Origin: Polytrichum commune
Taxonomy: Eukaryota; Streptophyta; Polytrichopsida; Polytrichales; Polytrichaceae
Direction: 5' to 3'
Assembly (NCBI GenBank): GCA_950295325.1
Contig: OX485804.1
Span: 10,724,001-10,788,000, forward strand
Length of the DNA: 64,000 bases
The notes under the pieces are model-generated. The model was not told the origin of the DNA. It saw nothing but the letters and a program-made list of their open reading frames with translations, and did not search any database. Made by a program: the position numbers and the translations under genes. Below, piece by piece: positions 19,201 through 50,900 of the stretch (position 1 is its first letter; each line of letters opens with the position of its first letter).

Positions 19201-20842
19201 AGATAAGACAAAACAAGTTGCAGTACACCAACGCAGAGACAGCCAGCCATGCAGTATCCTTACTAGTCGTGCAAGTATGTAATCTTAAAAAAAAAGGAAA
19301 TACAGAAGATGAATCAATGCTACAAACATTGTTTGTAGTAATCCAATAACAGCAAGAATTCAGTAACACTCATCCAACCTTTATACAGAAAATTAAGACA
19401 CACAAAACCTAGTATTTAGCTAAAATATTCCCTTTCAAAGACGTGAAGCACAACATGCACCATGCTTCACAGGCGCTTTTTGCGACCTCCACACAGCAAG
19501 GCGATCCTATACCATCAGAAAATCCAAAAACGATTGGGAAGACACATAGCCATACAACGCCCTTACTTATAGGGCAAGTACGTAACCTAAGAAAAAGGAA
19601 AATAGAGAAGACAGAGCAGCAGTACTACAAACACTGGCAGCCACCTTAGGTACCTCTACTAGCAATCACATTACGTGAGAACAGGACACACACAGTCCTC
19701 ACGACATCAAAATTATCCACCTCCAGTTCACAAATTCAGTACCACTAATCCAACCTTTAGAAGGAAAATCAAGACAGACGTAGACTAAAACCAGAACAGT
19801 AAACATTCCCTCGCAAAGGCACGAGGCACAACATCCACCGCATTTCACAGGCACTTTTCACGACCTCCACACAGCAATGTGATACTACAGCACTAGAAAA
19901 TCTGGAAACGATTATGAACGCAGACAGCCATGCAATCCCCTTACTAGTCAGGTAAGTATGTAACTTAGCAAAATAAAAAATAATAGAGGAGACAAAGCAG
20001 CAGCACTACAAACAAACAAACAGTGGCAGCCACTTTAAGTTCCTCTATTAGAAGTCACATTACAGAGGAGGACAAACACAGTCCTCACAACATCTGCATT
20101 CTCTGCGTCCAGTTGACAAATTCAGTACCACTCATCAGACCTCTAAAAAATTTATTACAACATACAAGACCTAGAACCAGAACAAAAACATTCCACCATG
20201 CACCACGCTTCGCAGGTGCATTTCGCGACCTCCACACAACCATGGAATCCTACCGCACTAAAAAATCCGGAAATGATTGCGAAGACAGACAGCTATGCAA
20301 GCCCCTTACTAATCGTGCAAGTAGGTAACATAAAAATAAGGAAACAGAGAAGATAAAGCAGCAATACTACAAACAAACAATGGCAGTCACGTTCGGTTCC
20401 TCTATTGGCCATCACATTGCATATGAAGAGGACACACACGGTCCTCACGACAACAAAATTCCCCACCTCCCCTTCACAAATTCAGTACTAGACAAGACAG
20501 GCCTCCTCCTCACGAACTACCCACTCAACCGACCTTAAGAAAAGAAAATATAGACACAAACAGGAAACGAGTCCCTTACGATTGCGATGACTCCTGGAAC
20601 GTACTACTCACCTCTTTCACAGACTGGGCAATCTCGGGCCCAATGCCGTCCCCGGGGAACAAAGTGGCCGTGATGACCTTGTTCTCCCCATCAGATTCTG
20701 AAGAGTACGATCTTCGACTCGTTGGAACCGAGAACTCATCTTGGCTCATCCTCGATGAGGATCTTCCTGCCCCAGCAGCCGCGGCGGAAAGGTATTGACG
20801 CCATGCCGTGCGCACACCCCCACAAGCCGATCTCATCGCCAT
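16291..20842 (-). CDS. IDH: NAD-dependent isocitrate dehydrogenase, catalytic subunit, mitochondrial
   Basis: Seven exons, all GT-AG: 20612-20842, 18843-19163, 18216-18377, 17918-17992, 17581-17690, 16862-16934, 16291-16482, giving 387 residues in one unbroken frame. The enzyme oxidises isocitrate to 2-oxoglutarate with NAD+ in the TCA cycle. After an Arg/Ser/Ala-rich N-terminus ([18 protein letters not shown], likely mitochondrial presequence) come [90 protein letters not shown] and [13 protein letters not shown]. These are the substrate, metal and nucleotide segments of the beta-decarboxylating dehydrogenase fold. The C-terminal [14 protein letters not shown] matches the catalytic (Arabidopsis IDH5/6-type) rather than the regulatory subunits. 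Intron 1 is long (1.45 kb) and repeat-filled. The gene appears intact. Confidence 0.95.
17459..17524. repeat. Perfect 19-bp hairpin in IDH intron 5
   Basis: CAAGAATTTGATATCTTCT (17459-17477) and its exact reverse complement (17506-17524) are separated by 28 bases, inside the intron between exons 5 and 6. It could be a small foldback remnant or an RNA structure. Nothing more can be said from sequence. Confidence 0.7.
19235..20560. repeat. ~370 bp tandem repeat, about four copies, in IDH intron 1
   Basis: Landmarks recur: CTTACTAGTC-GTGCAAGTATG-like at ~19258, 19563, 19939 and 20306, and GACCTCCACACAGCAA-like at ~19480, 19859 and 20225. Periods are ~305, 376 and 367 bp. Copies are ~75-85% alike by eye and non-coding. 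The array accounts for nearly all of intron 1. Confidence 0.8.
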
Positions 20843-27800: not shown

Positions 27801-27920
27801 CTTGGCCTGTGACCGGGCGGCCGTGTGACCAGCGGGTGGCAACTCAAATATGACGGCACCATCGAACACAGGAGGAAGGTACTCAACTCTTTCGTGTCTA
27901 ATCACAGAGTAGTCTATTTT
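24828..27920 (-). pseudogene. MULE-like transposase with SWIM zinc finger, one nonsense codon
   Basis: Minus-strand reading frame of two exons (core to 26421; GT-AG intron 26316-26420; exon 24828-26315). In order: a zinc-binding N-terminal region with C-x5-C-x4-C (GHLRCNNKECEYLFR) and HTRACIHIGTHDH, like WRKY/GCM1-type transposase DNA-binding domains; a transposase core with YDSTYC, FMADSAQANW and CQFHWTQS (candidate DDE aspartates and the C-x2-H of Mutator-like transposases); and a C-terminal SWIM finger (SSFVGCTCPAF...SYCKHVYF, C-x-C...C-x-H). An in-frame TAG at 27349-27351 separates EEQIEKTP from ATKSAVVLEASKVL, most likely a decayed Gln codon. The upstream 200-residue module lies in another frame (see 27923-28525). 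No terminal inverted repeats could be fixed. Confidence 0.75.
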
Positions 27921-27922
27921 TT

Positions 27923-28525
27923 TTAGAATATTTTTTTCCCCGGCATTGTCGCAAGTTGTTTAAGTAATGGTAATATGCTAACAGTATCTTGCGACAAAGG
28001 CTTTAGGGTAGGAGTGTTCCCACTAACTATGACCTTAGGCGGGGCCTTTGTGGGACTGCCCTCTTCATCAGAAGAAAGTGTTATTACAGACTGAAATCTA
28101 ACGTTCTCTACAATTGGCGTCTCAACACCGGGCTCGAGCTTGACCTTCACATCACGTGGCAAAGGAGTTTGAATAGTGCACGTAGAGGAATTACGAGGAG
28201 TGAGGATCTCAGTAGACGCAGCCATCTGAGAATCACTGAGGCCATAGACTCGGTAACTACTTGGATGAAGACTCCAAAACAAGTTATTGTTATCATCTCG
28301 CTGCGATACCTGACCAATTGTGTGTGTAAGTTCTGACGTGACAACGTCAAAAATCTCCTCGTCAACAATAATGGTGTCCTCTCTGAAGCCAAACCGAATA
28401 CTCAGACGTTGGGACGTCACGTAAGCTAGACCGTCCTCCTGCATCCGAAAGGTAAGTGGGACTCTAACACCATCTGTATAGAGGACAGCAAAACCCAAAT
28501 CTCCAATAGCAGGTATATGAGCCAT
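27923..28525 (-). CDS. N-terminal module of the MULE-like transposon ORF, frame-shifted from the transposase
   Basis: A 200-residue ORF beginning MAHIPAIGDLGFAVLY. Residues ~20-95 form a beta-rich module (LTFRMQEDGLAYV, SIRFGFREDTIIVDEEIFD, HTIGQVS) that is repeated in the separate ORF at 28990-29430. Residues 147-155 read VITLSSDEE, a textbook SUMO-interacting-motif pattern. The ORF stops just after an A7 run (27930s). A one-base shift there opens into the transposase frame without any stop, so the two were probably one protein. Decay, programmed slippage or a homopolymer sequencing error are all possible. Confidence 0.5.
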   Translation of the reverse strand: MAHIPAIGDLGFAVLYTDGVRVPLTFRMQEDGLAYVTSQRLSIRFGFREDTIIVDEEIFDVVTSELTHTIGQVSQRDDNNNLFWSLHPSSYRVYGLSDSQMAASTEILTPRNSSTCTIQTPLPRDVKVKLEPGVETPIVENVRFQSVITLSSDEEGSPTKAPPKVIVSGNTPTLKPLSQDTVSILPLLKQLATMPGKKIF

Positions 28526-28989: not shown

Positions 28990-29430
28990 CTAGAGTGCCG
29001 TAAGGTGTGTTCGCTTGAAGGGAGGGTTTTGCAAGTATTGGTTTTGAGGGAAGTTATATTTCAGTAGCACGAAGGCATTGAAGACGAGCAGAATGGGGAG
29101 AAAAAAGTTGGCGCATGAAAGATATGAGAGTGAAGGAATTAACAAAGTTTTGGATTTTGACGACATAGACGATCCAGGGAGCAAGAACCAAACTCTACCA
29201 TCGTCGATGCGACAGGACACCTGGAGGACAGTGTGACTCAAGTCACCGTTGTCATGAAAGACCTCTTCCTCGACATGAATTGAGTCTTCCTTCAATTTAA
29301 ACCTCATACTAAGGAACCACCCTGCGACTTTGGCTAGACCATCATCGCCTAGAGGGATCATGCACGGGATGGAATGGTTCGGTGCACGGATGGTCGCCAT
29401 TGTAGGAGGAATGTGAATGCGAGGACACAA
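28990..29430 (-). CDS. Second copy of the transposon N-terminal module
   Basis: Starting at the internal ATG (MATIRAPNHSIPCM), it aligns with the module at 28525: DGLAKVAGWFLSMRFKLKED / SIHVEEEVFHDNGDLSHTVL against DGLAYVTSQRLSIRFGFRED / TIIVDEEIFDVVTSELTHTI. Both genes are on the same strand, ~500 bp apart. The C-terminal third is unrelated and Leu/Phe-rich, so the original reading frame probably ended or spliced near residue 95. Function unknown. Confidence 0.45.
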   Translation of the reverse strand: MCPRIHIPPTMATIRAPNHSIPCMIPLGDDGLAKVAGWFLSMRFKLKEDSIHVEEEVFHDNGDLSHTVLQVSCRIDDGRVWFLLPGSSMSSKSKTLLIPSLSYLSCANFFLPILLVFNAFVLLKYNFPQNQYLQNPPFKRTHLTAL

Positions 29431-31738: not shown

Positions 31739-31927
31739 AGGTGAGCTTCGCGGGGTTTGTGGGTTGATTGCTTGTGTTGATTGCGGGTTTTGTAAATTGA
31801 TTGAACGTGTTGGATGTGGGTTGAATTTGATGCTTGGGGATTTGGGTCTTGCGGGATGTTTGCTTCCTTGCCCCGTCGATCCTTCAAGTAGTCCTGTGTT
31901 GGGAGGTTTTGCGACATTTGTTTAGGG

Positions 31928-32004
31928 TTTCGAGAAATAGGAGAGGGAGAGGAAGTGCTTTATGCTCCAAAAGCATTTCCGAGGACCCCCCCTCCCCCGG
32001 GGTC
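31928..32004. repeat. GC-rich hairpin element H1
   Basis: GTTTCGAGAAATAGG, then GGAAGTGCTTT...AAGCATTTCC stem, then a C-rich arm ending CCCCCGGGGTC. The G-rich left arm can pair with the C-rich right arm. It is ~95% like H2 and shares the same plan as H3-H5. It sits immediately 5' of an open exon-like stretch (32009-32118) that I do not recognise (includes NPGHWTEDMREDALEPADL). Confidence 0.8.
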
Positions 32005-32008
32005 GATG

Positions 32009-32223
32009 TTGAGCTTAACCGTGTATGACCATATCATCAACCCCGGCCACTGGACCGAGGACATGCGTGAAGACGCTCTGGAGCCTGCGGACCTTCAGCT
32101 ACGCAGCAAGTACAAGAGGTGACAATTACAGTGTTGGGCGAATTGGCGTCGGCAAAGGACCGGCTGTAGCTGCCCGAACTGCTTGTGGATTCGCTAACCC
32201 GCTACAGCCAGGAATCATGTTTG
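32009..32223 (+). pseudogene. Unrecognised captured exon fragment(s) after H1
   Basis: One frame reads YDHIINPGHWTEDMREDALE and on to SKYKR before AG|GTGACA. The sequence up to AAG|GGTGAG (~32230) stays open in another frame (SVGRIGVGKGPAVAARTACG). Composition and splice-like edges suggest host-gene origin, but no family is recognised. Confidence 0.3.
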
Positions 32224-32486
32224 CTACAAGGGTGAGTTGGGATGTTTGATTGGTCAGTCGAGCAAACCTTGAACGAATGTGGCAGAGCAATAAAACTTGG
32301 GCATAGCTTTGACGACAATGCAGGCCAATGCTACAGCATGGTCGATGCACACATTTTGTTTGGAGGGATTTTCCGGATAGTAGTTGCAGGTTTCTTTGGG
32401 TAATCACAAAAGACACTGATTAAGACGACACAAATGCTTATTTGCTGTGCACTTACTATGGTCTTTCTATGTGGTACAGCAGCACA

Positions 32487-33436
32487 ATGGCTTCGCAAGC
32501 GATGCCAACAAGGGGGCTGAAAATGGTGGCAAAGCTGCAGTTCCAGCCAAAGGTTTGTGTTTCCCAGCTGCAAGTGTTGTGTATGCTTTCAGTAATGTGA
32601 CGCCTTTGACACATACTATTTCTTCCAGCTCTATCGGATAATCAAGAAGATACGTGAGTGGCAGTTGTGTTAGTGGAACACCATAAACCATACATGTCAA
32701 CAGACAACAGGAATAGACCAGGGTTTTTCAGGATTGATAGAGGAGCCATGAACGAGAAATTATTCCTTCGAGACGCTTGATGTTTAAGAGCAGAATCTAT
32801 ACTAAATCACATTGCTAAAAGGTATTGCTAAAACCAATTTTCAGGTGTGGCCGCCAACATGCAACCAGAGCAGCACAAGCCACCAATCGTAGAGCACTCG
32901 GTGACATTGGCAATCTCGTGGGTGCTATGTATGTCCGATGCAATGTTGGCAAAGATGGCATCTTAGAGTAAGTACATGTTGCGATTTTTCGCCTCTCCAA
33001 GTTCCATCGTGCTTCAATTGCACCATTCTCTCCAGTTCTATACTTTGTACGATGTCCATATAATAGGGATCCAACACGCGAAACTTTGTTTCAACTCCAT
33101 TTCATTGTACTTTCAAATCTGTTCGGTGAAAATCAGTATCCTCATGAGGATTGTGAACGCAAAAATGCCGTTGTCAAGCAAGCTGTCGTGCATGCGGAAG
33201 GCATTACGCGACCCAACACAAGGTATGACTATTTTGAGATTCATTCCCATTAAAGAACTACTTGGCATGTTAATTTGTTTATTTCTCGACATAAGAATCG
33301 ACTTTAAATCATCAGCTGCTGCACAGCAATCCCATTGCCTTCGTTGCTTGCATTGATATTCCTATTGTGTTTGGGGTTTAGGAAATTTGAGGCCAGTCTC
33401 CAGAACTAGGCTGCTGCGAGAATTCCCCAACCAGCG
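32487..33436 (+). pseudogene. B-type cyclin N-terminal gene fragment, decayed
   Basis: Four exon-like pieces with GT-AG edges: from ATG 32487 (MASQAMPTRGLK), 32845-32967 (AAQATNRRALGDIGNLVGAM), 33137-33222 (KNAVVKQAVVHAEGITRPNT) and 33382-33436 (KFEASLQN stop AAARIPQPA). NRRALGDIGN is the conserved N-terminal motif of mitotic B-type cyclins, and a RP-x-TR plus FxAxL segment follows in plant B cyclins. The cyclin boxes are missing. A TAG interrupts the last piece and the second piece runs to a stop in the wrong phase at its donor, so it is not functional. Flanked by H1 and H2. Confidence 0.6.
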
Positions 33437-33644
33437 GTATGCATCTTCCTGCTCGTATTGATGCTTTCTATTCCAACATGGCGTTAACTGTAATGTATTT
33501 CATTTCTTATTCGATGTACTGGACTTCCTGTGGCATTTATTAAAGTGTTAGTAGATACTTTGGAGCAATTGTAGACGTTTGTAACCCATCATTTTGCTGT
33601 TAACAGGCTTCAGAAGCAACATACGAGGACATTTTCATTTTAGG

Positions 33645-33722
33645 GTTTCGAGAAATAGGAGAGGGAGAGGAAGTGCTTTATGCTTCGAAAGCACTTCCGA
33701 GGACCCCCCCTCCCCCGGGGTC
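33645..33722. repeat. GC-rich hairpin element H2
   Basis: Nearly identical to H1, with the better stem GGAAGTGCTTT / AAAGCACTTCC, and ends CCCCCGGGGTC. It lies between the cyclin fragment and the permease fragment, immediately 5' of the latter's coding sequence. Confidence 0.85.
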
Positions 33723-33725
33723 AAT

Positions 33726-33803
33726 GTAAACCCTAACCACCCCGAATTGCAACAAGAGGAGGATTCCGGTGAGCGCCGCCTCAACGAGCTCGGATACAAG
33801 CAA
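33726..33803 (+). pseudogene. Amino-acid permease (BAT1-like) N-terminal fragment
   Basis: The frame reads ELQQEEDSGERRLNELGYKQ. DSGE-x-RLNELGYKQ is the cytosolic N-terminus of plant bidirectional amino-acid transporters of the APC family, just before the first membrane helix. The similarity stops abruptly after YKQ and no transmembrane segment follows, so only ~26 codons were captured. It is joined without a gap to H2 on the left and sits ~90 bp before the M3 peptidase fragment. Confidence 0.5.
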
Positions 33804-33890
33804 GATTCCTTGCACATTGTAGGCTCTTTCGCTTTCGCTCTTTGTAGGCTGCTAAGCAGCATTGCCCGCCATATATTGATATGTATACAT

Positions 33891-35074
33891 ATGTACTTGG
33901 ATTTGCATGCACGACATGGGAAGTTTCCTGGTTGTGCGCATTTTACACTGAAGGGTTGTCGGCAGACTTCTCCCTCTGAATATCAGCTCCCAGTATGTTT
34001 TAGACTGATTTGTTATTACTGATAGTGCTTTTGTTGAACTGTTGTGACAAAAGAGATATAATGTGGATAAGTGCAACTTATGTATCTTAAATATTTGTAT
34101 ATTAGGACTAATCTGGTCGTGGAAGTTTGAGAAGGCAACCTATTGATTGTACACTGTTACGTGCACAATATGAGATATGTCTGCTAATTATGTTGAGCCC
34201 AAGTTCTGTAGTTCTGGAAGTCAAACAACAGTTTATGGCTCAAATGGCCAACCGAGCTAAGCTTGTTTAAAACCTCTGTTGGGTTTTGAGATCCTGAAGG
34301 TTATATTTCTCAGAGGAAGGTGTATAGAGGGCACTTCATAGACTTTGATTTTGTAAATGTGCATATTTGGTGGGTTCATGTTGTGGCTCTGGTTTGTAAC
34401 TTTACAAGTCCTGATGGGAATCTTCCTCCAATATTGAATCACTGGGAAGTTGAGACTCTTTTCCACGAGTTTGGCCATGCTGTGCATTCATTACTGTCTC
34501 GCACGGTACGTTGACTCCACATTTAACCTTTGTGAAATTTGATCATTCTCTGATTTAGTTGGTGCATTATCTTGTCAATTCAACCTTTTTCAGTAACTTA
34601 CTTCTGCACACTTCTCATATCAGCATATAGAATGAGGTGATATTGTACAGGACATCTCATATGTTTTGATCTATTTTGGGCTATAGGACTACCAGCATTT
34701 TTCTGGGACTCGAACAATACTTGATTTTTCGGAGATTCCATCACAACTCTTTGAGTGAGTACAACCTTGACCATGTTCTATTCTTACTACTGCTGAAAGC
34801 AAGTGGCATATGTTAGATTTGAGCTTCCATATTTGATTCACCAAGGAAACTTGCCTCCTTGTAATCCTTGGCTTGAGGTAGGGAACTGTGACTAATGATG
34901 CTTGGTGATTGTGACTACTAATTGTCTAATTTGTGCAGGTATTATGCGTGGGATTATCGGGTTCTTAGTAAGTTTGCTAAACACTATCTTACAGGGGAGG
35001 TCATTCCTGAGAAGATGGTTGCATCTATGAACGAAGCCAAGCGAATGTTGTTAGCCACTGAGATTCAACGCCAG
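33891..35074 (+). pseudogene. M3-family oligopeptidase (mitochondrial intermediate peptidase-like) gene fragment
   Basis: Four consecutive exons. 33891-33992: MYLDLHARHGKFPGCAHF...EYQLP. ~34383-34505: ALVCNFTSPDGNLPPILNHW then LFHEFGHAVHSLLSRT. 34687-34754: DYQHFSGTRTILDF...SQLF. 34939-35074: YYAWDYRVLSKFAKHYLTGE...ATEIQRQ. HEFGH at 34464-34478 is the zinc-binding HExxH of thimet-type metallopeptidases. The N-terminal half and the end of the enzyme are absent. No AG acceptor is visible just before the second exon. This is a captured internal fragment with introns, hence copied at DNA level. Confidence 0.7.
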
Positions 35075-35653
35075 GTCAATATGATCCTTATTGTTGTCAT
35101 GATTTTAAATGAGCCTGATACTTTAGGTGTTCTTTTAAGGTTGGATGGTTATCATTCTTAAGTAAACTCTTTAAGTTCATATGCAAACGGAATATCTCTT
35201 AGGTTATCCAGATAACCTATGAATGATTTCATTGGGGACGCACATCTTCAATTGAATCTTGGTAGATGGAAGACAGCTTTGTGTCTGAAGATAAGCAGCG
35301 TATATTAGGCAGTGTATATTGATATGTATACACACACACACACACACACATCTATATATAAAAATACATATAGTCCATTGTTCTTTGTAACACCTATTAA
35401 GACCTATTATCAGCAGTTCTGTTTGAATGGGTGGAGGTTGAATCTCAATTCTGTTTGCAAGTCATTATTGCCTTTTTTTATTGCATTTTTGGCCTGCTAA
35501 CATTTTTGCATTTATTGGGATGGTGTAGAGTCTGTACTGAGGGCAACAATATTAGAATGATTCTGGACAGTTGTCTATCCTCTGGATGCTCTGCATTTTG
35601 CTTGTCTATTTAAGCTTAATACATATGACCCGAAACTTGGTTGTAACTTGCAG

Positions 35654-36226
35654 GTAGGAGATGTTACAGAGTTGATGCATTCATGCTGCGTGGATAGCAA
35701 GTTTCAAGAAGCAGATGTAGCTAGTGGACCGTTTAGTAAGGTAATCACTCTTACAAACATTGAGCCTTGACATTGATAATAGGAGTGCATGCAATTTAAA
35801 CAGCAAGAACACCTCATATAGACAAAATAGTGAGTCTTAACAAGCTTGTTGTGGGCATTACACCTAGAACATTCAGCTTGTGCTAAAATGAAGCACAGCT
35901 AAATGTATGTCTTAGTCAATTGGTGTATATCTTTGGGTCCTGTGGCTAAAAGTTTGTGCATGATCTCCATTGAAATCTTGAAATCTGCTTATTGGCTGAC
36001 AATGCATCATGTGGCATTCAATCTACTCTATAAGAATAGATGTGCAGGTTAAGTGTTCTTAAATAACCTGATTCTTACCTGCTTGGACCAGAGACTGATA
36101 TATGAGTTATTCTATATGTAGAAAGATGCAGGAAGTCTACGTAAGCTGGCTGTCAACTCCAACAAACGGGGTGTTCCAACTCAGGAGCCTCAGCATAGGA
36201 AAGTACAAAGGAAAGAGAAAATGTGA
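35654..36226 (+). pseudogene. Unrecognised exon pair ending in a stop
   Basis: 35654-35740 (AG|GTAGGA ... AAG|GTAATC) reads VGDVTELMHSCCVDSKFQEA. In phase with it, 36122-36226 reads KDAGSLRKLAVNSNKRGVPT and then a basic tail to TGA. Exact phase and consensus splice edges suggest a genuine 3' end of some gene, possibly another captured fragment. It does not match the end of M3 peptidases. Confidence 0.35.
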
Positions 36227-36911
36227 GCAAGTTTGTAGACAGCCGTTCTTGAGGTTCTTTTGTGTCAATTTCCAATGAATTTCAAGGTTTTTGTCCTTAT
36301 CTTCAAAGTTAGTCCACTTTTGTGCTGCTGGCTCTCATATCCTTCTTTTTAAGTTGCCGAAATCTCCGAAGATGTTCTTTCAAGCTCTTAAATTACAGAA
36401 GATTTCTTGCATGCAGTTATAGTCCAGTTTCTATGCAATATATTTTATGAGAGCTGATGAGAATTTTACTAGTATGCGAAGTATATCTTATCTTGCTATT
36501 TCCAGAAACTGAGCGCTTGTGCGAAATATTAAAGATATGTATGTCATCACTGCAGTAGTAGAAATACATTCTTGGGGAAGCATAATGGCTGCATAACATT
36601 CTCGAGTATCCTATCTAGGTTCTGGTGCAAATGTAATAATTCTTAGGTAATTCTTATTGTTACAAATGTGAATTTTTATTGTTACAAATCCAGATATACC
36701 ATTTGTGCTCATTGTTACAATCTGTGCTACTCAATATGCAGATTAGGGTGCAGAAACCCTTAGACCCTTGCGATACCAATTTCCCAAACAAGAGAAGTCC
36801 TCTGGTGCATCATAGCCGGCTGCTGATTTTATGGACTGAATAGTAAACAAGACGATGTTTAATACAGGATCTTTCAATCCTACAATCTTCGGTGAACCAT
36901 TGCAAAGGGTG

Positions 36912-36991
36912 GTTTCGAGATTTGAGGGAGGGTTAGGAACTGCTTTCTGCTCCGAAAGCAGTTCATGTGATCCCCCCCCCTCCCCCGGGTC
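36912..36991. repeat. GC-rich hairpin element H3
   Basis: The core GAACTGCTTTCTGCTCCGAA continues AGCAGTTC, an 10-11 bp stem with an 8-base loop. It has a GAGGGAGGG left arm and a CCCCCCCCCTCCC right arm, ending CCCGGGTC. First of three tandem units (period ~240-250 bp). Confidence 0.85.
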
Positions 36992-37164
36992 ATTGCTGAT
37001 TTTGCAAGTCTATTTTTATTTCAATGTGATATGGAGAGGGGTTGCGTTTTATTTTGATTATGTGTTGGGTTCCGCGGTGGTGACATTGCATTGTGTGCCT
37101 TGTGTGTGCCGTGTTCCAAGGACCACCTCTGTGGAGGTGACGTTCTCCATGTTTATATTTTTTA

Positions 37165-37242
37165 GTGTCGAGATTTGAGGGAGGGTGAGGAACTGCTTTC
37201 TACTCCGAAAGCAGTTCCTGTGACCCCCCTCTCCCCCGGGTC
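37165..37242. repeat. GC-rich hairpin element H4
   Basis: Same plan as H3 with stem GGAACTGCTTT / AAAGCAGTTCC. The ~150 bp following it (TTGGGTTCTGCGGTGGTGAT..., CCTTGTGTGCCGTG) is a diverged copy of the sequence after H3, so hairpin plus tail is a tandem unit. Confidence 0.85.
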
Positions 37243-37399
37243 GTTGTTTAGTTTCTTGAATTTTGAATTTATGGTATGTGAATTGGAGAGAGGGGATGTT
37301 GATTATCTGGGATGTATGTTGGGTTCTGCGGTGGTGATATTGTTTTTCGTTCCTTGTGTGCCGTGTAGAAAAGGACGGTGCTGATGTTTTTTGACTTCA

Positions 37400-37476
37400 G
37401 TTTCGAGATATGAGGGAGGGTGAGGAACTGCTTTCTGCTCCGAAAGCAGTTCCTACGACCCCCCCTCCCCCGGGTC
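37400..37476. repeat. GC-rich hairpin element H5
   Basis: Same stem as H4 (GGAACTGCTTT / AAAGCAGTTCC, loop CTGCTCCG) with flanking GGGAGGG/CCCTCCC pairing, ending CCCGGGTC. Lies ~100 bp upstream of the first recognised exon of the ParB-methyltransferase-like gene. Confidence 0.85.
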
Positions 37477-37572
37477 TTTATTTAATTTGCGCATTTTTTG
37501 GTTGAGTTGCTTGACTCTGTTCATTGATATAGTATTCTCATGTGTGTTTTTTAATTACTGTTTGTAATTTAG

Positions 37573-40500
37573 GAGTCATCGGATCAAAACGTGGAGATGG
37601 AAGATCCTCACCCTACTCAAGAAGAAACAGAGGTATTTTGATGTAATATTGTTGAATTTCATGCATACTGTACCTTCTTTTTTTGAATTCCTTCGGATTT
37701 GTACATGTTTTGAGCAAAATGGCAACAGGTACGCAGATCTGGGGCATCCCAGGGGGTGCCGTAAACGACACCCTTTTTTTGTGTAAATTTCGGGGGTCAT
37801 TGTTTTGAGCAAAATGGCAACAGATACGCAGATTAGGGCTTTGTACTTGCAGGTGCTGGGGCATCCCAGGGGGTGCCGTTAACGGCACCCTTTTTTGTGT
37901 AAATTTTGGGTTTATGAGCCAACCCGGTTTATGAGCCAACCTCGCCGGGTTACATGCCCACGTCTCCTCGCCGGGTTACATGCCCACGTCTCCTCGCCTG
38001 GAAACACCACCGTCGTCTCCAGTTCCTCCTTCTTCACCTTTGGTGATGAGGAGGCCAGCTCATGTCGTATTTGGCCTCCCGGCAATATCACGTCGTACTG
38101 CCCCAATCACAAGGCGTATTTGGAGGGAGCGCCTTCTTTGGACTAGTAGAGAGTCTAGGGATTACTACACACGTGCTCCACGTAGATTGGCTCGCAAGTG
38201 ATACTTAGGGCCGACTACGATGTTTGAGTTGTTCTCATAGTATTTTATTAATGAGAAGGTTTTGAGATGATTTTTATGTGATTTAATTATTTTGTTTTCA
38301 CTTTCTACAGTGTTGTGTTCTAGTATTAATTTGCATGACATTTGGCAGGAAATTCAAACACAAGACGTGTTGCAAAAATCATCTTGCCCTTCAACCTTGA
38401 CGAATGCTGTAGATAGCGAATTGCAACATCGAACACAACACAAGGTGGACTCCATCAACGTTATCAACAGCGTTCGATTTCAACCCCTGAAGAAGTCCCG
38501 GTTGCTTGTCCCCTTGTATAGGATGATATCAATGGCTAAAGTGAGACCAGTCGGTGAAATGGGGATACAACATCTAGAGCGGGAGTTTGTGAAGGGATAT
38601 CGAGATGGGGACCGAGTCATGTACATTTCTATGTACAACAACGAAGAGTTGTCATCGGATGTTACGGAGGAGGTCAAGGCCGATTGGAGCCCATGTTGGG
38701 AAAGGGAGAATCAGTCTTTTGAAGACGAGCTTCAAGCAGACCCTGATTTGAAGCAATTCTTTGGCAAGATGTTCTTTGTCTGGAAAGGTAACCATCGCCT
38801 GGCCGCATGGTTAAGACATATTAACAATCATCATGCCGAGGATCCCGAATGGCACATCTTTGTGCATTGCATTATTTTAGACCCACACGGCCAAGTGGGC
38901 CTACTTCTTAATGCCATGTACGATATCAACTGGTGAGTATCTTCCTAATTCTATTTCTCCAACCGTATTGATACATATATTGTTATTTTTCATTATCTAA
39001 TTTTTGAATTCCATGTTCAGGTCTACTGAAAATGACCACGTAAAGAATAATATTCAAGCGAAGCTTTACCGCATCCGCTCTTTCGGTGTGATGAAGTTGG
39101 AAGAATTCAAGGATCTCCTCTGTCCAGAAGAGTTCGATGTCTGCAAGAAGAACAAACTAGCTAAAGATCGATGGTTTACCTTAACAACAAAAGTATTCAT
39201 TGCGTTCCTATACCGGGTAAGAATTACTTCCAAGAATTGATTACATTACCTTCTTTTCTCAAAGGTTTGAAGTTGTGTTCTCTTTCTAAATATTGTTCTC
39301 CTTCTACAGCGGGAGATTGCAGTGGCTTCGGATGAAGCCGCTAGGGCCTACATTGAGAGAACCCCAAAGGAGGACCAAACTGCAACCGGTGTCAAGGAAA
39401 ATGTGCACTATCCGGTAAGCGCCGGGCTTTTATTTTATGATAGTGTTTAAAAAAAATATAGTAGCTTTCCTTCTCCTACACTCTTGATGTAAATTTCTCT
39501 CAATGTGGTCCCTCTAAACTTCAGAATAGTATAACTCAAAACCAACTCATCTTCTTCAAGTGAAATTTGGTACACTTATTAAGTACCTTATTAAAAACAC
39601 TCCCACTAAATTTGAGCACAATCAGAGTTCATATGCAAAAGTTATGCATTATATTCTAACTCTAACTACCTAGCATGAATGCTGTGATAAACACCGGTCA
39701 CTAAAACCTTAATAACTTCCTATTCTTATGTCCAATAAATCTCAGATTTTAACACAAGATAAATGTGTAAGTTCGGAAGGTAGTGTCAAATTTTGGTATC
39801 CATATCTATAACCCTCTAAAATATACATATTTTCAAACCTTGCTAGTTTAGTTGGCTTTGTTCCTAGACACCCTTCCCTTCAATTCTTAATAATTTTTTC
39901 ATGCCAATGACTGAAGCTCTCAAATTTTTACCACAACTTTCATAACTTATAATAAACAATTTTTCAATTTTTCATATCCATTGAACACTCCGATAATCCA
40001 TAATTGACAAATCTTTCACTATAAAGTTCTGCTCAAGTTCATAACTAATAAACTCAACAAGTAGTGCACCTAGTGCAATCTAGTCACTCTAAATGCCACA
40101 CCTCCACACCCTTTTGTGTAGATGAGCCTCCTAAGCACTTATTCCTCTCAAAATGCTCTAAGCTCCCTCGATCCTACACAAGTATCCACTTCAAAATACT
40201 AATGGTCCTCCTAAACACTTCTCTAACACCCCTTAAATAGTCTTCCACCTTGTCCCCCTTCGGCCAATAGGAAACCATCGAGGTAAGGTCCTCTAGAACC
40301 CCTCCAAGTGGCTTGCTAATGGGTGACCTTTGGGGTTAAAGGTTTCTAGAATCCTTATCCTACTAGAAATAAGAAAGATATGGGCAGGGGTATAGTATCC
40401 CAAAACTCTCTTGTGATTAATTTAATTATTCTCCATTCGGCTCGATCCATACTCGTCTCTAATCAATTTAATTTTCTCTTCTAGTTGGAGGAAGCCGTCA

Positions 40501-42951
40501 TCCACGAGTTCGAGGATATATGCAAGGCGGAGAAGCTCGTTATCAACTGGAAGGCATCTCCAAATGTTCTGCGACCGGGCGCATATGTGGATTGTTGGCG
40601 TATTCTATTATGGGAGAAGACATTCTCTACATTCCTAGGTTCCCGGACTGAGAAGGTTTTCGATAAGAAATCCAATTTCACCAAATTCCCGGGAACGACA
40701 GAGGTTGTTAGGCGGGTTATATACCGGTATGAATATAAACTCAACCTCCCTTGCTATATCAATCATGTTTATTTCTCTTTATATCGTTAATGAGCCCTAT
40801 AACATATTGTATTTGTCATTTTTTAGGTACTTCAAGAGGGAGCTAGTTCCCAAAGGTGCCATCGATATTCAAGCACTCCCGAAGTACTTTGCTGCATGGA
40901 TTCAGAAAGGTTCAGGTCAGTGTATCTATACTGCCCAGCAGTTAAAAATGTACAAACAACCACACTTGCATGTAGGATGTTGGTATCTCGACTGTGTTCG
41001 TGGTTTTCTCTTTGATTCAGAGGCGGAGGTGAAGACCTTACATGATGGCGGAGTAGAGGTGGAAGAAGATACCACGCAAGTTACAGAAGATGACGAAGGG
41101 CACCATGATCAATCCTCTGCACCACCACCGAAGCCCAAGAGAGGGCGTCGTTTGCGTCAAGGGACGGACATTGTTTCCTTGGGTTCGGAATCACAAGCAT
41201 CAGAGCTAGGGCAGACGGAGTCATCCGCTCCCTTGTCGCAGACACTCCTTGCTTCTCAATCTAAAGTCGTTCTCGAGACTGCTCTCTCTTCTACGACCGT
41301 GCCTTCCTCGGTCAGTGCATTGGAGATGACGAGAGGTCTCATTGAGCAGAGGAAGGCAAAACTATTTCCCACGAGTACCTCTTCCAGTGGAATTCCACAT
41401 TCCGCCCATGTTTTTGTCTCCAGTATATCTGTGGAGACGTTGATGACTTCACATACGAAGTTGTCTGACAACGGTGGCGATCCAAGATGGGTTCAGATTC
41501 TAGACTTCATTCGCAAGGTACAATCCATTGATTCGACTCGATTTGGATGCATCAAGTTTTTTACATATTATAAAGTCTAACTTTCCTTCCTAGTTTCTTC
41601 AAGATGGGAGAAGGCCGCCAAACCCAAGTTCCAGAACGGTGCGAAAATGAGAAGCACTTTGGGATCGACTTGATCATTGCCGACATCCCTGAGAATCTAC
41701 CCGTCCCTTCCGTATCCAATCCTCCATCAGTTGTTTCACCTTGGAACTCCTGGGATCCCGAATATGTGGTGTCTATCTTCGAATTTGCAAGTCATTACTT
41801 GCAAAACGATGGTGCTCTCCTCCTCATCCACAACAATGATCGAAAGCTCACTGCGGACATTTTCGATCAGGCTGAGACTTACGACTTTGTGATGCACAAG
41901 GACTGGTGGGGCATCAATGACCTCGAGTTGGCTTCTCCTACGGACCCCGACTCCAAGGTATTTACACCGTAATCATTCCTTGTTTATGTTTAGTGATAAT
42001 TTTTTATTTTATTTACTCTCACATGTTTTGGTTGACTGCAGTCTATTCGGTTCTGGATTCACGTCTTTATTTGTGGTGGCGACGTGACATCTAATTTCTC
42101 ATTCCAGACGAAGAAATCCGAGGTGATACATGACGACGTTAATATAACCAAGAATGATGCCCTGTTCAACCTCACCACTGCGGAGACTCAGCTCATGAAT
42201 GGGAACGTTCCATGGAGAGGACCAAGGGAGAAAGCCCCTTTGTTCATGCAGACCCTCATTGAGCAGCTGACCAAGCCCGGCGACATAGTCCTCGACTGGA
42301 AGGCAGGAATAGGTAACCATTCATTAATTAGTTCTGAATTTCCATTCCTCTCATATTCTCAACAGAGTCTCACATCTTTGCGATGCTTTGAATTCAGGGG
42401 CTACCATTAAGGCTTGTCAGGAGATTGGTCGTCATGTTGTGGCGTTTGAGGATGACGAACCCATCTTCAACGCCATTCTCCGTCCATATATCGCTTCAAG
42501 ACCTGTCATGGGCCTTCCTAAACATCCCAGACCTGCATCTGCTGATGAATCGCGCCCCAAAAAACAAAGACGCAATAAATGGGCTTGTAAGTAAGTCTTA
42601 CTTTATATTTTTTACTTCTAGTCGATTTATCTTAGCTTTGCTTTTATTTGCATCTCCACGTACTCATTCTAACCACTATCGGGTTTCTATTGCAGAGTAC
42701 TTGCATCAACACCGCGACCTATGCCAAGACCCATACCCATTCCATCATGGCGTGTGAACTCCAGTCCGATACAGCCTTATATTCTTCCAGAGTATGCTGA
42801 GGAATTAGCACAAGCGCTTCAATCCGGTGCCGTTAGATATGTTCCTAGTCGAGCTACTACTTGTGATCCTAGGGCCCTTGTATTTATGGATACAGAGGCT
42901 GTAGAAGGAGATTCAGAGTCCTCAAGATCAGATAGTGGAAGTAGCGATTAG
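37573..42951 (+). CDS. ParB/Srx-like domain plus beta-class N4/N6 DNA methyltransferase-like protein
   Basis: Exons by GT-AG and phase: 37573-37632, 38349-38932, 39021-39216, 39310-39414, 40485-40726, 40827-40915, 41021-41517, 41604-41957, 42042-42312, 42398-42590, 42696-42951. Together ~950 open codons; the start may be ATG 37597 or lie in an unseen upstream exon. The acceptor at 41603 is a weaker AAG. The N-terminal half has a ParB/sulfiredoxin-type loop FVWKGNHRLAAW (38775-38810). A low-complexity acidic/Ser linker follows (41020-41300). The C-terminal half has beta-class methyltransferase order: FGIDLIIADIPENL in the motif IV position, a strand with LQNDGALLLIHNN, then KPGDIVLDWKAGIG|ATIKAC (motif I) and GRHVVAFEDDEPIF. 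The catalytic DPPY appears as DIPE and the DPFxGSGT loop as DWKAGIGA, so SAM binding or catalysis may be lost. Such ParB-methylase proteins are known from bacteria and phages. Introns make bacterial contamination unlikely. Confidence 0.7.
37708..37997. repeat. Tandem hairpin repeats in intron 1 of the ParB-methyltransferase gene
   Basis: Two units (37708-37800, 37801-37915) each contain TTGAGCAAAATGGCAACAG, GGGGCATCCCAGGGGGTGCC and a GGTGCCGTTAACGGCACC-type palindrome followed by T6-7 and GTGTAAATTT. They are followed by a 26-bp direct duplication (CGCCGGGTTACATGCCCACG, ~37950-37997). Hairpin plus T-run looks terminator-like but is in a plant intron, so that reading is not supported. Confidence 0.75.
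37980..38201 (+). CDS. Small Pro/Arg-rich ORF within the intron, doubtful
   Basis: 73 codons from ATG 37980: Pro/Ser-rich start (MPTSPRLETPPSSPVPPSSP), Arg-rich end (RAPRRLARK). Its start lies in the 26-bp duplication. The composition is coding-like, and it could be an alternative terminal exon of the surrounding gene. No family recognised. Confidence 0.25.
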   Translation: MPTSPRLETPPSSPVPPSSPLVMRRPAHVVFGLPAISRRTAPITRRIWRERLLWTSRESRDYYTRAPRRLARK

Positions 42952-43599: not shown

Positions 43600-44067
43600 C
43601 TAATCTAACTCAGGGCAACTAAGTTCGCCAAGGGACGTTGTCTCTAACCTGTCGTTGTTAATTGGATTTGCTAGTGACCAAGAAGTCCTAAAGACGTTCC
43701 AGTTCAAGTTGAATCGGTAAGCTTCATATTCGTCCTTTGGAGTCCAATGGCGACCCGAGTACGAAACGTAATCCCACTTCGCTAGCCGGAGGCATGCGTA
43801 TTCAGGACTGCTGTCAATCTCACGTTTCCAAAGCTTCGACACAGCACGAGCATTCTCGACGTCTTCAAATGTGATTACCGATGGAGGAGTCCAACACTGT
43901 GTTGTACTGCTACCTATATGATCCCAGGGGTCAGGCCCATCCGCCATCCGCTGAAGCAAATCCTGTAGAACCGTTTCACAAACAATGACCTCAAAGGAAT
44001 CGCCCATTCTCTCTAAACACTGGTTAACAAGTACAAGGTTAAGTTCTAAAGAAATCGATGAGCTCAT
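43600..44067 (-). CDS. F-box-like ORF, convergent with the ParB-methyltransferase gene
   Basis: A single-exon, 155-residue ORF from ATG 44067. ETVLQDLLQRM, then after a ~25-residue insert, ITFEDVENARAVSKLWKREI and DSSPEYACLRLAKWDY. This follows the F-box pattern (L-x-D-LL-x-x-(I/L), then A-x-x-VSK-x-W-x-x-x-I). The insert splits the motif, so either the box is atypical or the match is partial. The C-terminal half is Trp/Tyr-rich (FNLNWNVFRTSW) without a known repeat. If real it could be an SCF-type adaptor. It lies 650 bp beyond the methyltransferase stop on the opposite strand. Confidence 0.4.
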   Translation of the reverse strand: MSSSISLELNLVLVNQCLERMGDSFEVIVCETVLQDLLQRMADGPDPWDHIGSSTTQCWTPPSVITFEDVENARAVSKLWKREIDSSPEYACLRLAKWDYVSYSGRHWTPKDEYEAYRFNLNWNVFRTSWSLANPINNDRLETTSLGELSCPELD

Positions 44068-47000
44068 ACGAGTCGAAGGAATGTTAATAAGGCTTATATA
44101 GATTGTTCCTTGACAGCAAAGCTGGCAGTGCTCTTATTCAACGACGGAGAAATCTTCGATGAAGACAAACACTCTGTCATGGAATAAATCTTGGTTTCAA
44201 CAGTACCATTATTGTACACGAACTTTAAAAACGACCATCGGGGTTTTATTATAGTTTTTCTATTTTATATTCTTAGAATTGTCCACGGTAATAGGTGTTA
44301 TTATCTTTACTTCACTCCATTTCCATAATTGATCTCCCCAATTATAACCAGAATCTTCCATTAATAATCTATAAATCATGGGTGAATTATGAATTTATTT
44401 CATTCGTTAACATTTATGAATAGGGAAATGTTGGCCTATTTCCACGGTAATAGAGTCCATAACTCCCAAAACATTCAAAATGAAGCTTGAAATATGTGCA
44501 AAATCCGCGGTCATAAGGGTCCTAACTTTCCGACAATAGAGTTTTAAACTAACATTTTCTGCTCACGAGATCTGCTCACCGCTCACCGCTCACATCGTAG
44601 CATTCCTGATATCTAGATCTCCATATTATAAGAGTATGTTCACATGCTATTAATATGAATGCATGTAAAACCATACCGCCGAATTGAAGGTGAACTTCGA
44701 CAAATTAGAGTCTCGTGTGTTCTCATTACCACTAATTTTGAGGTATTTTCTTCCTTTCAAATGTGCAACTTTTAGAGGGACGAGTTTCAACTCCTCTACA
44801 CGGGAATCAACTATCAGTTTTTATTATTCACAATTTTTGACCAGATATAATCTTAGCTTAAACTAAATCTAAGTAAAGTCTTGTGTACAATACGATATTT
44901 ATTTTGATTACAAGAACCATAATTTATAGTGCTCATATAGAGTAAATGTGTGGAACACATAGTGGGAATACTCTTCTTTAAGTATCGTTACCCAATTTAG
45001 CACCCCTTTATGTTAGCATTTGGTGTCCAACATGTTCTAATGTAGACGTGCCTAAATTGATCATAGAAATAGTTTGCACACCTATATATATTGAGTTGTT
45101 TGTGGTAAAGTAAGAATCTAAGAACGGACACCAAAAAATATGATTTTAAAAGAGATTGGACTACGTCTTCAAAATATGTTAACCATTCTAGGATCAATAA
45201 TTGACATAATGGGGGGGGTATGCAATAATTTCATGAGCATGAGAATATGTGATTTGAAAGTAAATAAGATATTCATATGAACCCCCCAAAATTTTAAGGC
45301 AAAATGCTATGTAAACAAATTGAATTTGCTAATAATCTCACATCAAGTGTGTGTTTCATATCATACGAGAAATGGGTGCTTGGAAAGAGAAAAATATCCG
45401 AATAACACACGTCTGCCTATGTATGTGCTCATAACTTGCTAACCAATCTAGATCAGTTGTTAACACAATTGGGGAGAGGCCTATGTGTAATATGATCACT
45501 TAACCACTATATACATTTGGGGTCATATATGACCCCAAGTTTCATATAAACTTTCATTTTGTATAATTAACCTATCCAAAATGGCATTAAATTTGGTCAA
45601 AATTTACTATAGTAATGAAGTATATTCTCTTGAAAATTGTTTTGAGAAATATTAATTTAATGAGAAACCTAGGGATTTTGTAATGTGGAAAGGGAGTTGC
45701 ACCATCCGGTTACGTCATGTGCCTAGACTAACACAAATCAACAAGTCAATGAATATTGTAGCGACACCTTCCCAAACCAATGGTAGTCTAGGTTGGCTAA
45801 TATATTAAGGTTCCACTTGTTAATACTTGATTTCACATAGCAAATATTGGCTGATTGGGTTGAAATTTTGATATGGTTCTATTGATTGGCCTTTGAAAAA
45901 TGTTCACCATTTGAACTTGCATTTTGCAATGTCCATCATTGGAGGCAACAATTTGGGTTATGGCATTGCAAGTAACAGAAAACCATCACATTCAAGTGAA
46001 TTATTGATATTTTTTTTGCAATGCATTGATATTGAGATTATAAAGATTCCCAATATATTCTTTACAAAATTCATTGATTTGATAGGGAAGTCATCACTTT
46101 TCCACCCCTCAAAAAAGTTGCCAATGTTGCCCATTTCATACCACATGCTATAAAAATTTATTATAATCTACCTAAGTATGACATTAGTAAAATTTAAAGA
46201 CTAAAAACAACTCACATTTGTACAATCAAATTTTACCGAGCATGCATTGATTGCCTTCAACAATTGCCTACATCCAAGTTACCGAATTAGCTTGTTTTCA
46301 CCCCAAAATGCCCAAGTGCATTTAGAGGGAGAGAGAGAGAGAGAGAGTCTTTGCTTTGGCCTCCAACTTTTGGATCTCAACTCAGATACTGATACCCAAA
46401 ATGAAGATATGTAATAAGATTCCAACTCAATTTAAGATGAGCATACCTTGAATGAACACTTATAGCTCTACATCCACTTGTTGCAGGTGATAAAACACAT
46501 GCAATTGGTGCAAGATGATAAGCAAATGCAAGTTGTGCATGTAGCCATTTTCCTCGTATTTTTTTGGATCTCACATGAATATCTTATTAATTGAAAATGA
46601 AGGTTATCTTTCTTATTAAGTGATCATTGAGGTCAAACCTCCCAGATTTGTGACTTTTGAGCCCATAATAGTCAACATATTTTGAGCACATAATCCAATC
46701 TTGTTTAAACACGTTCCCTCTTTCTTTTCTTTTCCGTAGTTTCCGTTCTCATATCCACACCTAACCACACATCACTCAAAGACAGGTGTCCACATTTCGG
46801 GGTGTTGGATTAACATGTCGGTCTACCTCATATGGCACAGTGTATATGTACTTCCAAATAAATAAACAACGCACTCCCCAATTTTGACCAGTGGATCGGA
46901 TGGAGAATTGTTTCATTCAACTAGCGATTGTGAATCACGAAGATTTTTGGTTCCAGTTTTAGAATCGAAGTTGAGATGCAGGAGACATAAGAAGCCAAAG

Positions 47001-47905: not shown

Positions 47906-50900
47906 TCATAAGTCGATCCTCGGAGAGGCATACGAGTTTTGAGATCTTCGAAACGTGTGCGCATTGTCTATGCGTATCGGTGGCTTCCTTGATACTGGGA
48001 CGTCATTTAATGTTGAGTGCACACCATTTGCATCATCAGGAGCACCTTTCAACCTAGGATGGTGGTCCTCACATCCGTTCTCGGTGTAGGTCAAGTCAAT
48101 TTGATCGACCTTCGTTGCTCCTACATGATGCAATCCATTTTGCTTGGCTTTGGTAACTCCATTATCGTAGCACGGACTAAGATGGTCATCAGTAATACCA
48201 TTTGCATGTCCATTCGCATGCCCATTCTCATGCCCATTTTCAAGCCCGTTCACATGCCCATTTACAAGCCCGCTCACATGCCCATTCTCGTGGCCGCTTG
48301 CAAGCCTGTTTGCATGCCCATTCTCGTGGCCGTTTGCAAACCCGTTCGCATGCCCATTCCCATGGCCATTTGCAATCCCATTCGCATGCCCATTCTCACG
48401 GTCATGTGTGATCCCATACGCATGCCCATTCTCGTGGCCGTTTGTCATCCCATTCACATGCCCATCCTCATGGCCATTCTCAATCTCGTTTGCAAGCCCA
48501 TTCGCATGCCCATCCTCATGGCCATTCTCAATCTCGTTTGCAAGCCCGTTCGCATGCCCATCCTCATGGCCATTCTCAATCTCGTTTGTAAGCCCATTCG
48601 CATGCCCATCCTCATGGCCATTCTTAATCTCCTTTGCAAGGCCGTTCGCATGCCCATCCTCATGGCCATTCTCAATCTCGTTTGCAAGCCCATTCGCATG
48701 CCCATCCTCATGGCCATTCTCAATCTCGTTTGCAAGCCCGTTCGCATGCCCATCCTCATGGCCATTCTCAATCTCGTTTGTAAGCCCATTCGCATGCCCA
48801 TCCTCATGGCCATTCTTAATCTCCTTTGCAAGGCCGTTCGCATGCCCATCCTCATGGCCATTCTCAATCTCGTTTGCAAGCCCGTTCGCATGCCCATCCT
48901 CATGGCCATTCTCATCATGCCCTTTTGCAAGTCCATTTCCAGGCCCATTCTCAACATATCCATTTGCAAGCCCATTCTCATGTCCATTAGCATGTGCATT
49001 GACCTTCGGTTGTGGAGGTTTGTATGTTGAATGATAAGATCCGTTGCTTGTACCATTTGCATGATCATGGGAGGCTTTCGTAAGTGGTACCTCAGTTTTT
49101 GCATTCAAAAGTTCTTGATTATGCTGATTGCCAAAAACTTGCACACTAAGCTTTTTACGATGCAGTCCATTGAGCTTGATCTTTTGGGAGAAAAATTCTT
49201 GTAGATCCTCTTTCTTCAATCTTTGTAAAACATCGACCTGCAATATGCTCAATGATAGTAACAACATCAAGAACTTATCATGAAGTTATAGATAATTAAA
49301 AACGCTGAAGTAGTTTGTCTGATCTAAAACATGAGAGCTTCTTCACTTGTTAAAAACTGTTCACCTAAGCCAATGTATGGGAGACATAACCTGGATGTAT
49401 GGGAGAAATACAACTGCAGTTATTCCCTTGCAAAGAAAAATTCCTTGGTGCCCAAAGTTTGTCAACAATAGTCATCAAACGTTGTAAGCCCAAAAACAGA
49501 ATACATTCTGCTACTCACATGCATGTACAATGAGAGTTTTGGGGATCAATAGAGTCCTTACCTCAATGTCAACTCTTTCAAATTGAAGAGATCCACCAGA
49601 AATTTCTCCCCAGTAGAAGTCACTCTCTTCCCAAAGGTTTTTGTGTTTTTCCCTCTTCATATCCGTGAGAATTTTCACATGATTCTGCATGGCAACAAGT
49701 ACTTATTTTCATGGTCGTACACAGATTTGTGCAAACCAAATCAATCACACAGAAAAGCTCTTTAATCAGAAGGTTTCAACTTTGACCCAAAAATGTCAAG
49801 GGTCTATTTGGAGCGAACATGAATGTGCAAGCTATATTACAGAATGGAAGGCAACAATAAACCTTACCTGAAATTCATACTCTGTCATGTCACGTAATTC
49901 TCTTTCGTACATTATAAAGAATGCCTCCACTCTTTGATCAAGCTGAGTAGGATCCTGGAATAACCAAATCACAAATACAACATGAATATTGTAAGTCATG
50001 TATTGCATAAAAAGAAGCATTCTTTTTATCTATATTATTTAATGGCATCCTTCTACAACCTTCACTAATTCTGATCTTTTGGCCTCGTTATGATGGCTCC
50101 TCTCAAGGGAGGACGGGTTCAATATTCATTAACTTGGTTAAGCAATGCATGCTAATTATTTATATTTCTGCACCTCCTCGTAGTGTTGTGATCCATCGTC
50201 TTGCACGTCATGAACTCGTATAAAGTCCCTTGTTGACAATATTATGCAAACTGGCTGATACAATGAAAATTTATTGCATTAGGCATATGATGTAATCGAA
50301 TATACCTTGATTGTTGATTGGATCATGACCTGGACACCTCGTATATTTTCATGATACCTGCAAAAATTAAAGTCAATTCTATGGACAACAGAAAATTGAC
50401 ATTAAATTTCTTACATTGAGTTATACGCATGCGATCTCTGAGGATATTAGGTGCTATAAATAACGTTGACATTTGAGGCTTACTTCTCAGAAAGCTCAAC
50501 ATAGTAGCCAAGCTGTTCCACTGTTCGGAGTTGGTTGAAGAATTGCTCCTTGGCAGTCAACGTGAAAAGCTCAAGCAACACATTTGAGTTGGAGTCATCT
50601 ACTCCAACCTGAAATAGATTGTTTTTAATATAAGCGCATTGACTCAAAAACTGAAACAGCGTAAGTGAACCAAGGAGAAAAATGATTATGCCCCTAGTAT
50701 TTCTAAATGATGTAGATCAATCAGACTCGTCTATTTGAAACTTAGACTGGGCGAACTATCTACCCATCACAAGTGCAATGATGTGTTGGATTGTTAGTGA
50801 TCGTGCCAGTTTCTACAATAATGTTTGTCCCTCATGCACACATAGAGAGCACATGGATCGATGGAGTAATTTATACCTGAAAGTAGATGCCAATAGCAGA

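Follow-up and report, generated by a model that had tools for sequence, protein, structure and literature searches.

A divergent ParB-like and methylase-like gene in a multi-copy, MULE-like DNA transposon of Polytrichum commune

An inverted-repeat element with two divergent genes

We analyzed a stretch of 64,000 nucleotides from Polytrichum commune (GCA_950295325.1, contig OX485804.1, positions 10,724,001 to 10,788,000, forward strand; hereafter, the window, whose numbering is used throughout), in which positions 37573–42951 hold an intron-rich gene predicted to encode a ParB-like domain followed by a DNA methylase-like domain. The gene lies within an inverted-repeat DNA transposon of 21,330 or 21,331 bases (23278–44607) that is bounded by a 10- or 11-bp target-site duplication. 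This accessory gene (+ strand) and the transposase gene (− strand) are divergent within the element, and an array of palindromes lies between them. The reading we favor, with a probability of roughly 0.6, is that the accessory protein would recognize its own element's palindromes and keep the element's genes from silencing, in the manner of VANC. The main parts of the element are as follows.

23267–23277, no strand: left target-site duplication, GATATCTAGAT, 10 or 11 bp; the element's first base is 23277 or 23278
23278–23440, + strand: left terminal inverted repeat region, GGACGAGACTTGTATGTGAGC, GAGCGGA-type repeats, then CCTATTTCCGTGG; L078 is 91% identical over 892 bp
24828–28525, − strand: transposase gene, four open blocks, MULE-like, with a SWIM zinc-finger trace at the C-terminus
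31921–37493, no strand: palindrome array, five repeats of ~100 bp with cores GAACTGCTTT-N8-AAAGCAGTTC
44435–44607, − strand: right terminal inverted repeat region, which ends CTGCTCACCGCTCACCGCTCACATCGTAGCATTCCT
44608–44618, no strand: right target-site duplication, GATATCTAGAT, a direct copy of the left one

The 11-mer GATATCTAGAT occurs twice on the + strand of the window, once at each end of the element. The left ends of the window element and of a copy on C4 are 91% identical over 892 bp, and both start ACTTGTATGTGAGC followed by GAGCGGA-type repeats; the window's right end bears the inverse, CACCGCTCACCGCTCACAT, and its two ends align with each other only weakly, in short stretches (24.7 bits, E 0.001). 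Neither the C4 copy nor a copy on C1 has a clean target-site duplication, which is seen in the window copy only. Insertions are nested at the C4 copy, where bases past the right end recur ~270 bp left of the left end. As a candidate for the C1 termini, the 9-bp GGCCTCACA near both ends was dropped; the left side of that copy is cut inside the transposase gene.

The accessory gene of the C4 copy is divergent from a 763-aa open frame, which together with the blocks to its left matches the four window blocks (24828–28525) at 41–62% identity; a nested insertion interrupts this transposase. In the window, the block closest to the left end carries a SWIM trace below the cut-off (E 0.0096), and a Pfam scan of the transposase gave no MULE or KDZ match at E 10. 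Target-site duplications range from 8 to 11 bp in MULEs and measure 4 bp in Sola and 8 bp in KDZ elements, and by these generally known lengths the latter two fit a 10- or 11-bp duplication less well. Duplication length, SWIM trace and inverted repeats together point to a MULE-like element, of a superfamily that is unproven, since no MULE profile matched. A further open frame at 28990–29430 (− strand) resembles by eye the N-terminal part of the transposase block 27923–28525, as if duplicated.

The accessory gene

A sequence-only reading of this locus had counted about eleven exons joined in phase into ~950 codons. Our model agrees: 11 exons with GT donors and AG acceptors give one joined frame of 949 open codons from 37573, or 940 codons from the first in-frame ATG at 37597, with the stop at 42951.

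37573–37632, + strand: exon 1, spliced frame, first in-frame ATG at 37597
38349–38932, + strand: exon 2, ParB-like domain with GYRDGDRV and GNHRLAAW
39021–39216, + strand: exon 3, spliced frame, 52% identity to the C4 copy
39310–39414, + strand: exon 4, spliced frame, no aligned stretch in the C4 copy
40485–40726, + strand: exon 5, spliced frame, 40% identity to the C4 copy
40827–40915, + strand: exon 6, spliced frame, 42% identity to the C4 copy
41021–41517, + strand: exon 7, low-complexity linker, spliced frame
41604–41957, + strand: exon 8, methylase motif IV region, DLIIADIPENLPVP
42042–42312, + strand: exon 9, WRGPREK, then the beginning of methylase motif I, KPGDIVLDWKAGIG
42398–42590, + strand: exon 10, remainder of the motif I block, GRHVVAFEDDE
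42696–42951, + strand: exon 11 with stop, spliced frame, no aligned stretch in the C4 copy

The acceptor AG of exon 8 is 41602–41603, so the exon starts at 41604; an alternative start ten bases upstream (41594) breaks the frame and was rejected. GNHRLAAW, LIIADIPEN and the KPGDIVLDWKAGIG..GRHVVAFEDDE block each fall in the half of the protein to which they had been assigned.

Protein-database relatives were found for exon 2 (26 at E ≤ 1, best 1.4e-117) and for the methylase piece (16 at E ≤ 0.1, best 1.2e-51); a search with the whole-length protein scored 7999 candidates and returned none at E ≤ 1. Six collinear protein stretches of 29–52% identity are present in the C4 copy, in exons 2, 3, 5, 6, 7-8 and 9-10; none was aligned for exons 1, 4 and 11. 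Because there are relatives in the protein database and exon 2 matches across the plant's own genome, the gene model does not reflect chance, and this conservation may in part stand in for transcripts as support for the predicted exon joins. Bacterial contamination is ruled out by the introns and by the chromosomal location of the copies.

Copies, linkage, and constraint

We searched the plant's own genome (407,808,757 bases in 64 contigs), where exon 2 was scored in at least 150 places out of 1222 candidates; these count the window itself, and some have stops. Identity to the window is 90–100% in six of these places (hereafter, the close copies) and 45–52% in the other 144. A 200-bp query from the right end of the C4 copy was scored in at least 40 places of 309 candidates, and the transposase in at least 122 of 1813. 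Twelve of 29 compared loci (L050, L051, L052, L054–L059, L064, L066, and L067) are 98.98–99.52% identical to L053 over 3.5 kb, which argues for recent spread; L061 is 98.98% identical to L053 over 3.1 kb.

At least nine of the exon 2 places listed have a transposase within 20 kb, and five of the nine pairs are divergent. All five belong to the six close copies, the window's among them, a stronger point than their count. Little can be read from the low linkage of the remaining copies, because the transposase list is ordered by similarity to the subfamily of the window.

The sequence-only reading had proposed a gene either domesticated or carried by a mobile element, and had suggested counting its copies in the genome. 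The mobile element is the right choice, given the ends, the target-site duplication, the linked transposase, and the many copies that the count revealed. A single domesticated host gene would be consistent with the intact 11-exon frame, but the gene is multi-copy, flanked by inverted repeat regions and a target-site duplication, and has a transposase gene alongside; we give domestication almost no weight.

Nine exon 2 pairs were compared between subfamilies. In eight of them dS is saturated, with dN of 0.22–0.42, and the ninth has dS 1.7, dN 0.15, and dN/dS 0.08; young pairs hold too few changes for dN/dS to be read. These values bear on another explanation, that the gene is a captured fragment without any role for the element. 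Gene capture is frequent in MULE-type elements (Pack-MULE, named in PMC12477816). However, exon 2 is common to many copies and subfamilies, the protein is constrained, and the same two domains are described in an algal transposon of another superfamily (PMC12477816), so that a mere passenger is very unlikely.

A methylase domain with altered motifs

As had been proposed, the sequence identifies a beta-class N4/N6 DNA methylase domain in the C-terminal half. The PF01555 (N6_N4_Mtase) profile matches at 7.6e-8 with 33 bits, above the curated cut-off of 26.7, and places residues 762–817 on profile positions 163–218 of 221; phrog_3008 matches this half at 7.1e-11, and CcrM (6pbd), likewise a beta-class methylase, matches the methylase piece over 209 residues at E 3.6e-7. 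CcrM has the canonical catalytic motif, unlike the present protein. The order of motifs predicted for this class, with motif IV preceding motif I, is also borne out by the sequence.

Motif IV reads DIPE, which departs from the catalytic pattern (D/S/N)PP(Y/F/W), and motif I reads DWKAGIG. The stretch ADIPENLPVP is kept in 16/16 rows that cover motif IV in a 17-row alignment (A2), the 17th row, P0028, being without that region. The PF01555 search of the plant's own genome also recovered a related methylase subfamily, two members of which are close to each other and encode 567-aa open frames: L022 (C1:9660650-9664297) has motif IV VDIPYGMP (DIPY) and motif I LDLSVGTG, and L021 (C4:44110240-44113398) has VDIPDGMP (DIPD) and LDLFVGTG. 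These two are the only ones of five PF01555 places that lie on large contigs. Since they retain more of the usual methylase motifs, an active ancestor is likely. Strong PF01555 matches in L018, L019, and L020, on contigs C10 and C12 (47 and 61 kb), are perhaps microbial sequence in the assembly.

The protein may itself be an active methylase that places 4mC or 6mA in the element's DNA, with DIPE as a tolerated variant of motif IV. The above-threshold PF01555 match, the more usual motifs of L021 and L022, and the 4mC or 6mA product predicted for an algal protein in PMC12477816 favor such an enzyme. Against it stand the absence of the motif IV tyrosine from all 16 rows and the loss of N4CMT activity in bdelloid rotifers when Ser and Tyr of SPPY are changed to Ala (PMC8885841), and we regard it as rather unlikely. 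The methylase half may be a conserved pseudo-enzyme.

A candidate ParB/Srx fold

The N-terminal domain is well conserved, including GYRDGDRV and GNHR..AW. Its GNHR, near-invariant among relatives, matches the ParB/Srx phosphate motif GxxR (Box II, as defined in PMC12704722). An AlphaFold2 model built with 27 sequences (mean pLDDT 77.5, pTM 0.70) has strands at 49-55, 59-61, 91-94, 142-146, and 171-177 and helices at 70-81 and 148-161, the latter starting within GNHR. Matched by eye, this order of strands and helices is the one that we take to be that of ParB and sulfiredoxin. PDB sequence searches with the domain returned unrelated chains only (best E 0.015). The ParB-like half named by the sequence-only reading is thus plausible on motif and model, although no significant sequence match accompanies it, and we consider a ParB/Srx fold probable.

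Searches of viral, phage, plasmid, and prokaryote contig sequences yielded no close prokaryote relative. Patterns derived from exon 2 gave 11 matches in viral contigs and 109 in prokaryote genome contigs, none confirmed as a relative. In tblastn, the methylase piece hit phage records (522 at E ≤ 1, the best at 4e-5) and plasmid records (1935, with 4e-3 the best listed), none reaching 60% identity, and P0005, an exon 2 relative, matched one phage record (E 0.4, annotated as a DNA binding protein) and one plasmid record (E 3). A Pfam scan of 8 phage methylases showed no ParB fusion.

Palindrome arrays between the two genes

The cores of the window palindrome, GAACTGCTTT-N8-AAAGCAGTTC, lie at 31952, 33670, 36937, 37190, and 37425, the first two with 2 mismatches and the other three exact; five were found, vs 0.01 expected from shuffles. 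In the plant's own genome, the 100-bp repeat gave at least 31 rows in a search that skipped very common words, comprising 27 distinct places and 4 reverse-strand self-matches, and these form six clusters. Every cluster lies 0.8–2.8 kb upstream of exon 2 of one close copy (6/6), and in the five close copies with a linked transposase it is located between both genes.

The young subfamily has a perfect 22-bp palindrome, GAGGCCTCGGATCCGAGGCCTC. The C4 copy contains 25 exact occurrences, every one of them in the stretch that separates the transposase frame from exon 2, and the C1 copy contains 32; 50 mononucleotide shuffles contained none with up to 3 mismatches. Because GAGGCCTCGGATCCGAGGCCTC is absent from the window and the window palindrome is absent from the C4 and C1 copies, the two subfamilies read at length have arrays of different sequence. 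A third palindrome, AATCCCACGGATCCGTGGGATT, is common to L049 and L063, which are near-identical to each other, and L071 has an AT-rich palindrome before exon 2. We also observed that AATCCCACGGATCCGTGGGATT of L049/L063 (1086) shares the core CGGATCCG with the palindrome of the young subfamily.

Such an arrangement might be that of a helper in transposition, modeled on mudrB of MuDR, which would serve cutting, target choice, or replication and not silencing, with the palindromes as transposase or replication sites. Its divergence from the transposase gene and the presence of the palindromes in the stretch between both genes would suit that role. Transposases, however, usually bind at element ends, and the palindromes are found between the genes rather than there, which leaves a helper of this kind a doubtful candidate.

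Proposed self-recognition and its relation to known systems

Recognition of the element by its own accessory protein fits the locus, because the genes are divergent, subfamily-specific arrays lie between them, and the conserved N-terminal domain is a ParB-like candidate. That domain would be a nucleotide-binding module of ParB/Srx type, recognizing the palindromes much in the way ParB recognizes parS, and would deliver the methylase-like domain to DNA of the element itself. Once there, the methylase-like domain would write an amino-methyl mark or, alternatively, given DIPE, may be a non-catalytic binder of DNA or S-adenosylmethionine; in either case, the accessory protein would keep the element's genes unsilenced. 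A more elaborate version, which we offer tentatively and hold to be possible at best, is a eukaryotic ParABS-like system run by a transposon: a ParB-type clamp with an altered or non-catalytic methylase fold would load on the subfamily-specific palindromes as the element's own parS sites, spread over the divergent promoters, and shield the element from host silencing, with protein and palindrome changing together as subfamilies split.

Several observations weigh against self-recognition. When transposase positions were shuffled 500 times, divergent pairs averaged 0.5 and reached a maximum of 5, so the observed five were equalled at least once; among the matches listed, one close copy (C1) has no transposase nearby, and exon 2 of another close copy contains two stops. 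In 5/8 further loci, a search limited to unspaced palindromes found no perfect one of ≥ 18 bp in the 1.5 kb before exon 2. Of the 15 pairs among the six close copies, one is identical and the other 14 have dN/dS of 0.20–0.88, from few changes. Taken with the values between subfamilies, this selection pattern is the one expected if an element protein were needed during spread and free to decay afterwards. Motif IV is without the usual D/SPPY and motif I without the usual phenylalanine, and methylase activity is doubtful for that reason.

The ParB assignment has its own counter-evidence. Pfam CB_ParB_C touched 3/27 exon 2 relatives and 2/19 members of a second, partly overlapping set, with a best value of 0.076 that unrelated families equal, and a ParB-like PHROG was touched by 7/27 (best 0.056) and 4/19. 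A viral ParB gathering with a Spo0J query confirmed 0/45 pattern matches; the ParB alignment available for hhalign therefore held two sequences, too thin for its score of 0.6% (control 0.2%) to count either way. PF02195 was matched by 0/27 exon 2 relatives at E ≤ 10 and by 0/19 of the second set at E ≤ 1, unlike the proteins of a survey that used this profile at its gathering cut-off and that names Srx as the commonest eukaryotic representative of the fold (PMC12704722). If this branch is ParB, surveys of the fold based on PF02195 would miss it.

Few systems are known in detail by which DNA transposons of plant-like genomes escape silencing, VANC being one. VANDAL elements are of MULE type, and the domain make-up of VANC differs from that of the present protein. 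In Arabidopsis, VANC binds to short motifs repeated in tandem within non-coding parts of the VANDAL element that encodes it, and it induces loss of DNA methylation (PMC5735166). Both are transposon accessory proteins accompanied by motif arrays in non-coding parts of the element, specific to the family for VANC and, here, to each of the two subfamilies read at length. The VANC motif, YAGTATTAY, measures 9 bp, is arrayed in a single orientation, and is not a long palindrome like ours (PMC5735166).

Among the closest published systems is Sola1-1_Ec32 of the brown alga Ectocarpus, a 21.5-kb element whose accessory protein (1104 aa) has ParB-like and N4/N6 methyltransferase domains; PMC12477816 cites similar transposon proteins in green and red algae and proposes that such proteins bind and modify their own element. 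By description, that protein has the two domains within a transposon, opposite the transposase; the present one would share this layout, its ParB domain being not statistically proven. Sola1-1_Ec32 is a Sola-1 element, unlike the SWIM-bearing element with its 10-11-bp duplication described here, and the available text of PMC12477816 makes no mention of palindrome arrays. The same domain pair is documented in phage, as a ParB-CTPase fold fused to a PF01555 N6_N4 methyltransferase (PMC12704722), unlike the present case in being phage-borne. Bdelloid rotifer N4CMT and a liverwort 4mC methylase are, like this protein, prokaryote-type amino-methylases in eukaryotes, but N4CMT has SPPY and a chromodomain, and the liverwort enzyme is described without extra N- or C-terminal domains (PMC8885841).

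The sequence-only reading knew of no described nuclear plant gene of this architecture. For eukaryotes at large this does not hold, given the brown-algal transposon (PMC12477816); for land plants, none was found in the literature searched. The domain pair in a transposon is thus already known, and what appears new, as far as our searches show, is that the element is of SWIM/MULE-like type, that loss of the tyrosine from motif IV is conserved, and that the palindrome arrays are specific to subfamilies. We found no paper in the literature searched that describes such arrays, which the algal papers cited in PMC12477816 may do. With a prokaryote-type protein and a palindrome array in one element, and many young copies, a specific protein-site pair is open to testing.

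Other features of the window

43600–44067, − strand: small ORF of 155 aa, inside the element between the accessory gene and the right end

For this ORF an F-box match (E 0.11) is not significant, and the C4 copy has no match at E ≤ 0.01. Outside the element, a repeat-protein open frame lies on a 48-bp tandem array at 47906–49270 (− strand), and a fragment of an isocitrate/isopropylmalate dehydrogenase gene (PF00180, 4e-22) is located at 18735–19250 (− strand).

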